DNA from: a virus
Direction: 5' to 3' (one strand)
Length of the DNA stretch: 34,180 bases
IMG/VR virus record: IMGVR_UViG_3300030380_004710
Span: 1-34,180 of that record
This document shows positions 835 to 966 of this stretch, piece by piece; the stretch's first letter is position 1, and each line of letters starts with the position of its first letter. The notes under the pieces were generated by a model. That model was not told the DNA's origin, did not search any database, and was given only the letters and a program-made list of their open reading frames with translations. Both the position numbers and the translations under genes were made by a program.

Positions 835-877
835 ATCGCAGAGAATCGCAAAGCGACCACTCCGTTTTCTCTGCGAT
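835..877. repeat. Tandem structured repeat, copy 1
   Basis: Eleven-bp perfect arms ATCGCAGAGAA (835-845) and TTCTCTGCGAT (867-877) enclose a 21-nt loop, which itself contains a mini-stem TCGC-AAA-GCGA (846-856). Read on the - strand, the hairpin is followed at once by TTTTT (complement of 831-835), so it can end the leftward nuclease transcript. The loop is nearly identical to that of copy 2, while the arms differ by compensated changes. Confidence 0.75.
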
Positions 878-921
878 CTACCGAAATTTTTTTTGAAGCC
901 GCAGTCGTGTTCGGAAGCAAA

Positions 922-966
922 AGTTGCAGAAATTCGCAGAGCGATCACTTCGTTATTTCTGCAACT
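922..966. repeat. Tandem structured repeat, copy 2
   Basis: Twelve-bp perfect arms AGTTGCAGAAAT (922-933) and ATTTCTGCAACT (955-966) enclose a 21-nt loop with the mini-stem TCGC-AGA-GCGA (934-944). The loop differs from copy 1 at three positions. The right arm overlaps the stop codon and last codons of the leftward nuclease gene. On the - strand the hairpin is followed by TTTTGCTT, a weaker tail than copy 1. The pair could be a double terminator or a conserved RNA element. Confidence 0.75.

Follow-up and report, generated by a model that had tools for sequence, protein, structure and literature searches.

What are the two tandem hairpins at positions 835-966 of the virus record IMGVR_UViG_3300030380_004710, which share a loop and differ in their arms? 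The stretch analysed here, referred to as the window, comprises positions 1 to 34,180 of that record (34,180 nucleotides), and the hairpins lie where a leftward nuclease gene, family F0, ends. It is nearly certain that they belong to a previously uncatalogued family of elements that is real, structured, and linked both to this nuclease and to a variable slot of gene cassettes. What the elements do is a more tentative matter. We favour, at a probability of roughly 40%, an element that works at the level of DNA, marks cassette boundaries and is acted on by F0.

Direct reading of the sequence and repeat and hairpin finders both recover the two hairpins that the initial annotation had described. 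Copy 1 (835-877, + strand) has a perfect stem of 11 bp, ATCGCAGAGAA/TTCTCTGCGAT, and copy 2 (922-966, + strand) a perfect stem of 12 bp, AGTTGCAGAAAT/ATTTCTGCAACT. Each stem encloses a structured loop of 21 nt, and the copies score 74.1 and 69.3 bits, respectively, with the covariance model described below. As had been noted, TCGC...GCGA occurs in both loops, which differ at exactly 3 of 21 positions, while the 11-nt arms differ at four positions (1, 3, 9 and 11) with the complement changed at each. Within the loop, an inner mini-stem (TCGC-AAA-GCGA at 846-856 in copy 1 and TCGC-AGA-GCGA at 934-944 in copy 2, both + strand) is followed by a second mini-hairpin (A-C-TCC-G-T at 859-865 and A-C-TTC-G-T at 947-953, both + strand); that of copy 1 reads AC-GGA-GT, with a GNA triloop, on the - strand. 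Copy 2 extends into the end of the nuclease gene, whose stop codon (953-955) lies at the junction of loop and arm. The loop motif occurs twice in the window and in none of 100 shuffles, even with three mismatches allowed, and folding either strand, whether as RNA or as DNA, gives z-scores between -3.4 and -5.6. The T5 tail reported for copy 1 on the - strand is a TTTT, or T5 if the last arm base is counted. On the + strand, a T8 tract (887-894) lies ∼9 nt past the copy 1 stem and is found at the same place in many relatives. The pentamer TCGCA is ∼16-fold denser at 746-1170 (4 in 425 nt) than in the remaining window (20 in 33.8 kb), and these dense copies lie on the strand opposite the nuclease.

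The same design recurs far beyond the window. The motif TCGCANAGCGANCACTNCGTT was found in 20 IMG/VR contigs, and a covariance model built from the first 12 distinct units, together with three further pattern scans, expanded the family to >50 distinct units, spread over about 60 contigs of IMG/VR. All stems of the first 12 units were perfect, 9-12 bp long and different in sequence. Each unit consists of AAA, a variable perfect stem, and a conserved loop of two mini-hairpins between its arms. Across 45 distinct aligned units, standard pairs occupy 99.2% of cells and double-sided changes occur at 10/10 stem pairs tested. All three helices covary, with 136 double-sided changes versus 39 in shuffles, and the covariation score is 0.513, whereas shuffles reach 0.174 and slid controls about 0.1; because the units are related, the shuffle counts are not probabilities, and the slid controls preserve that relatedness. 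The initial proposal that the arms covary and that the fold itself matters holds for the family at large.

The loop is constrained in sequence as well as in pairing. Its TCGC..GCGA mini-stem is paired in 100% of cells, with a compensatory change from C-G to T-A in two relatives (L032 and L085). The second mini-hairpin, A-C-TYC-G-T, was searched with any base permitted at both positions of the pair; among 53 stem-bearing units the pair was C-G in 36, T-A in 17 and discordant in none. Read on the opposite strand, this mini-hairpin is AC-GRA-GT, a GNA triloop. Such triloops are very stable as single-stranded DNA. Expanded variants with a longer arm keep the AC/GT pairs (L018 1034-1101, L010 9129-9181), and loops of a further class, 10-12 nt long (GAGTTTGCGA in the nuclease sense), retain TGCGA beside the right arm. 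The GNA triloop led us to consider the hairpin promoter of the N4 virion polymerase, which was rejected because the arms are sequence-free and the unit stands upstream of ordinary sigma-70-like promoters. A search that let the inner mini-stem vary returned only stemless chance matches, and a coding artefact was ruled out since the arms differ and reading frames are not conserved across units.

Known catalogues hold no counterpart among the classes searched. No Rfam family matched at its gathering score, a weak Rfam microRNA match (E 0.63) is attributable to chance, and a tRNA scan found none. INPHARED phages contain no unit, and there was no direct DNA similarity to cultured phages; GTDB genomes yielded neither an exact match to the core motif nor a relative of the nuclease. 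The DNA polymerase of the carriers is 48-52% similar to those of HTVC023P-type pelagiphages and phage 023Pt_psg01, and the covariance model found the element missing from the first 50 kb each of HTVC023P and 023Pt_psg01, the closest DNA-polymerase relatives. The carriers are probably marine tailed phages that form a group of distant relatives of the pelagiphages. Two of the identities first suggested for the hairpins can be revised. A stand-alone small RNA gene finds no backing, as Rfam gave no match and no promoter directed into the hairpins was identified. A mobile structured repeat comes closest: the structured repeat is indeed recurrent, but copies keep to one locus. Records that could be searched whole hold 1 to 6 matches, nearly all at that one locus, and the arms differ in 59/62 pairs of copies from one record. 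The mobile parts appear to be the gene cassettes between copies rather than the hairpins.

The most constant neighbour of the element is F0 (953-1369, - strand), a leftward PD-(D/E)XK nuclease with a RecU/Hjc-type fold according to its predicted model and sequence. A search by protein alone, in which 80 IMG/VR loci were kept, gave 49 distinct readable F0 3′ ends, and all 49 carry a perfect hairpin at or just past the stop codon. In these hairpins TGCGA or TGCAA adjoins the right arm, except that in a few variants with short loops it precedes the arm by up to 3 nt. Pfam matches of F0 to PDDEXK_9, VRR_NUC and Hjc all fall below cut-off, and PHROG Holliday-junction resolvases match at E 3e-4 to 8e-4. 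The predicted model (predicted local distance difference test, pLDDT, 77.6) has RecU as its best structural match (Z 11.3, 3.3 Å over 131 residues), followed by Hjc (Z about 8.5) and the homing endonuclease I-Ssp6803I (Z 8.1), and the expected catalytic residues E24, D33, E46, K48 and Q62 do not vary among 27 homologs. Phage VRR-Nuc relatives cleave four-way junctions (PMC4103454). Distant F0 homologs with 27-34% identity also occur in the pelagiphage-type genomes HTVC023P, HTVC027P and 023Pt_psg01, with downstream sites at L082 14902-14930, L164 2772-2905 and L165 1864-1945, respectively. The HTVC023P homolog is followed by a perfect hairpin with an AAC-GAA-GTT tip and no U tract, and the other two by short tandem repeats of GCTTG or GCTC units.

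Across phage groups the locus keeps one order: terminase large subunit (F10, labelled from reading its sequence and not from a family search), small genes, element, one or more cassettes, element, and leftward nuclease. Each single-gene cassette ends in a canonical terminator, which is followed by an element and then a new promoter. In many internal units the succession is terminator, element, TTGACN-17-TATATT and start codon, and these internal copies do not lie behind a leftward gene. The window itself has a small rightward cassette gene in the variable slot (596-754, + strand; 52 aa, family F43), its canonical rightward terminator with a TTCG loop and T tract (779-802, + strand), both elements, and the nuclease; here no promoter directly follows the elements, the next gene being the leftward nuclease. 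Over 65 loci, at least 10 gene families are found in the slot adjoining the nuclease, and none of the cassette proteins tested gave an informative Pfam match. Other palindromes were also noticed. A palindrome TTTTTTTGAGT-CGC-ACTCAAAAAAA lies between element and promoter in several internal cassettes (L012 1458-1482 and 1931-1953, and relatives), and a conserved palindrome, GGAGTCGCAT-CTAG-ATGCGACTCC, which contains TCGCA/TGCGA, lies close to where the leftward small gene F1 ends (L003 247-270, L012 642-665, L018 1114-1137). In the window, a perfect palindrome, ACATTTCACG-GAT-CGTGAAATGT (127-149), stands just upstream of a promoter-like TTGACT and a small gene at 216.

Two kinds of trace bear on exchange at these borders. 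Blocks of homology between records stop preferentially at three places: the left edge of the element, with 4-fold enrichment, a point just ahead of the next gene, and the 5′ end of the nuclease gene. This result is descriptive, and the record pairs are not independent. In addition, one chimera of two units was observed. L073 (reverse complement 46-180) has two tandem units with different arms, and L059 (reverse complement, about 2535) has at the same place a single unit that carries the left arm of the first L073 unit and the right arm of the second. The two arms are joined within the identical loop and are hence unpaired, which looks like a deletion between tandem copies. Such a chimera could stem either from a crossover in the loop or from a join made during assembly.

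Pairing preferences separate the elements from ordinary terminators. G-U pairs fill 2/486 inner stem pair cells of the elements (0.4%), both traceable to a chimera, as against 41/685 (6.0%) in canonical terminators of the same contigs (Fisher about 4e-8, with no correction for relatedness). Likewise, the eight positions after the stem contain on average 4.1 T in the nuclease sense and 2.8 in the other, versus 7.0 in 76 canonical terminators of the same contigs, although these were chosen with at least 6 T of 8 and the comparison thus says no more than that the elements do not reach the level of this class. The near absence of G-U pairs and the weak U run suggest that DNA, or both strands, and not a single RNA, is under constraint. 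Termination on both strands was ruled out as a general cause of the missing G-U pairs, since the rightward sense has no U enrichment.

On the reading that we favour, the unit would work as DNA. In single-stranded form, or on extrusion as a cruciform, it would fold into a branched structure whose tip is constant and recognisable. F0 would cut or resolve junctions at this branched element, and exchange between units would swap the promoter-gene-terminator cassettes that lie between them. The copy that overlaps the end of F0 would probably also halt leftward transcription, if weakly. What we observe is the structure with its conservation and covariation, the linkage to F0, the varying cassettes and one chimera of two units; that the element acts as DNA, that it is a target of F0, and that recombination there is actively promoted and not just incidental are inferences. 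Several observations count against this scheme. The L059 chimera could be an artefact of metagenome assembly. Gene movement is seen on the far side of F0 too, in a stretch free of elements, and shuffling thus does not depend on them. The conserved AAA before the stem reads as UUU after the stem in the F0 sense and fits a terminator, as does the placement of a unit at the F0 stop codon. The F0 model is weak at residues 24-31, its fold is also that of homing endonucleases such as I-Ssp6803I, and the cross-phage comparisons are not independent.

The main rival is a leftward terminator or insulator that ends the nuclease transcript and shields the cassettes from antisense transcription, with a phage or host protein that reads the loop offsetting the weak U tract. 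We consider it a serious possibility, only a little less probable than the favoured reading, and a cassette-boundary function and a leftward terminator can both be true. The units are uniformly oriented, with UUU(U) after the stem in the nuclease sense, and one stands at the nuclease 3′ end in every distinct case; the T counts are higher in that sense, and some copies are flanked by A4 and T4, as in bidirectional terminators (L012 594, L036 7290). Yet the U tracts are weak beside those of canonical terminators in the same contigs, G-U pairs are nearly absent, and in one group A+T stems absorb the U run (L054, L060). Internal copies, moreover, have a canonical rightward terminator upstream of them and a rightward promoter downstream. 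A plain terminator is an insufficient explanation of the conserved, internally structured loop. The double terminator of the initial annotation therefore survives in part: copy 2 does lie at the nuclease 3′ end, but with such U tracts a full account by termination is not supported.

A sequence-free but paired stem under a sequence-fixed loop is also the usual look of a protein-bound RNA hairpin, and the unit might be a structured 3′ terminus of the nuclease mRNA, or belong to a read-through RNA that a phage RNA-binding protein binds to set stability or timing. This seems improbable to us given the scarcity of G-U pairs, the lack of an Rfam family, and the internal copies, which between terminator and promoter should be little transcribed. 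Still less probable is that F0 is a free-standing homing endonuclease, with the hairpin as part of its mobile unit or as its target. Although the fold is common to I-Ssp6803I and the nuclease-hairpin junction is constant in diverse phages, the neighbourhood of the nuclease is fixed near the terminase large subunit in the groups whose contigs cover that region, unlike that of a roaming gene, and it is the cassettes that vary, not the nuclease. We give least credence to a quasi-palindrome without selected function, kept perfect by template-switch correction and spread by homologous recombination. Hairpin-templated repair is generally known to yield perfect arms of differing sequence without selection, but canonical hairpins of the same contigs, with shorter loops, retain G-U pairs; moreover, the loop sequence is conserved where the arm sequence is not, the loop mini-hairpins covary, and the linkage to one gene is strict.

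The elements suggest a possible route by which open-ocean tailed phages exchange small accessory genes. A sharply defined, repeated DNA structure stands at cassette borders in dozens of environmental phage contigs, next to one candidate enzyme, and the proposal can be tested with short synthetic DNA. If the elements prove to be protein-dependent terminators, they would still be a new and easily recognised family of signals with a conserved tip, of use in annotating a large group of uncultured phages.

Among known systems, intrinsic (rho-independent) terminators likewise place a hairpin where a gene ends, with a brief U run behind it, here in the nuclease sense. Unlike them, the elements have a weak U tract, a structured, conserved loop of 20-22 nt and almost no G-U pairs, and sit upstream of promoters. 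F0 resembles the phage VRR-Nuc/RecU/Hjc Holliday-junction resolvases (PMC4103454) in predicted fold, size and catalytic residues. Its sequence similarity to them is weak, with Pfam matches below cut-off. We know of no described member of this group with a hairpin tied to its own stop codon. Integrons and their attC sites offer a parallel in their single-gene cassettes, uniformly oriented hairpin sites with free arms and retained pairing, and a site array that adjoins one gene for a DNA-processing enzyme. In contrast to integrons, no tyrosine integrase of the IntI type was identified and the adjacent enzyme has a PD-(D/E)XK fold, neither R′/R″ core sites nor extrahelical bases were seen in the elements, and the cassettes often have their own promoters. 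Capture and swapping of genes at hairpin sites in marine phages by a resolvase-fold nuclease that recognises a branched hairpin of single-stranded or cruciform DNA, its tip constant and its stem variable, without a site-specific recombinase of a known class, is a proposition that we hold to be unlikely.

Promoter-early stem-loops (PeSLs), reportedly described by Arbiol et al. in 2010 and Comeau et al. in 2014, are cassettes of a stem-loop and a sigma-70-like promoter in T4-type phages. They too combine a short intergenic stem-loop with a sigma-70-like promoter among small accessory genes and are tied to modular gene shuffling between relatives. The present elements differ in that their carriers are related to pelagiphages rather than T4-type myoviruses, and in that the canonical terminator is separate from the element. 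They also comprise an extra hairpin with a conserved structured loop and freely varying perfect arms, and adjoin a resolvase-like nuclease gene. The PeSL of T4-type phages, a concept cited in PMC4503421, is the closest one described, and the family reported here, set apart by phage group, loop and nuclease, is not a member of it.
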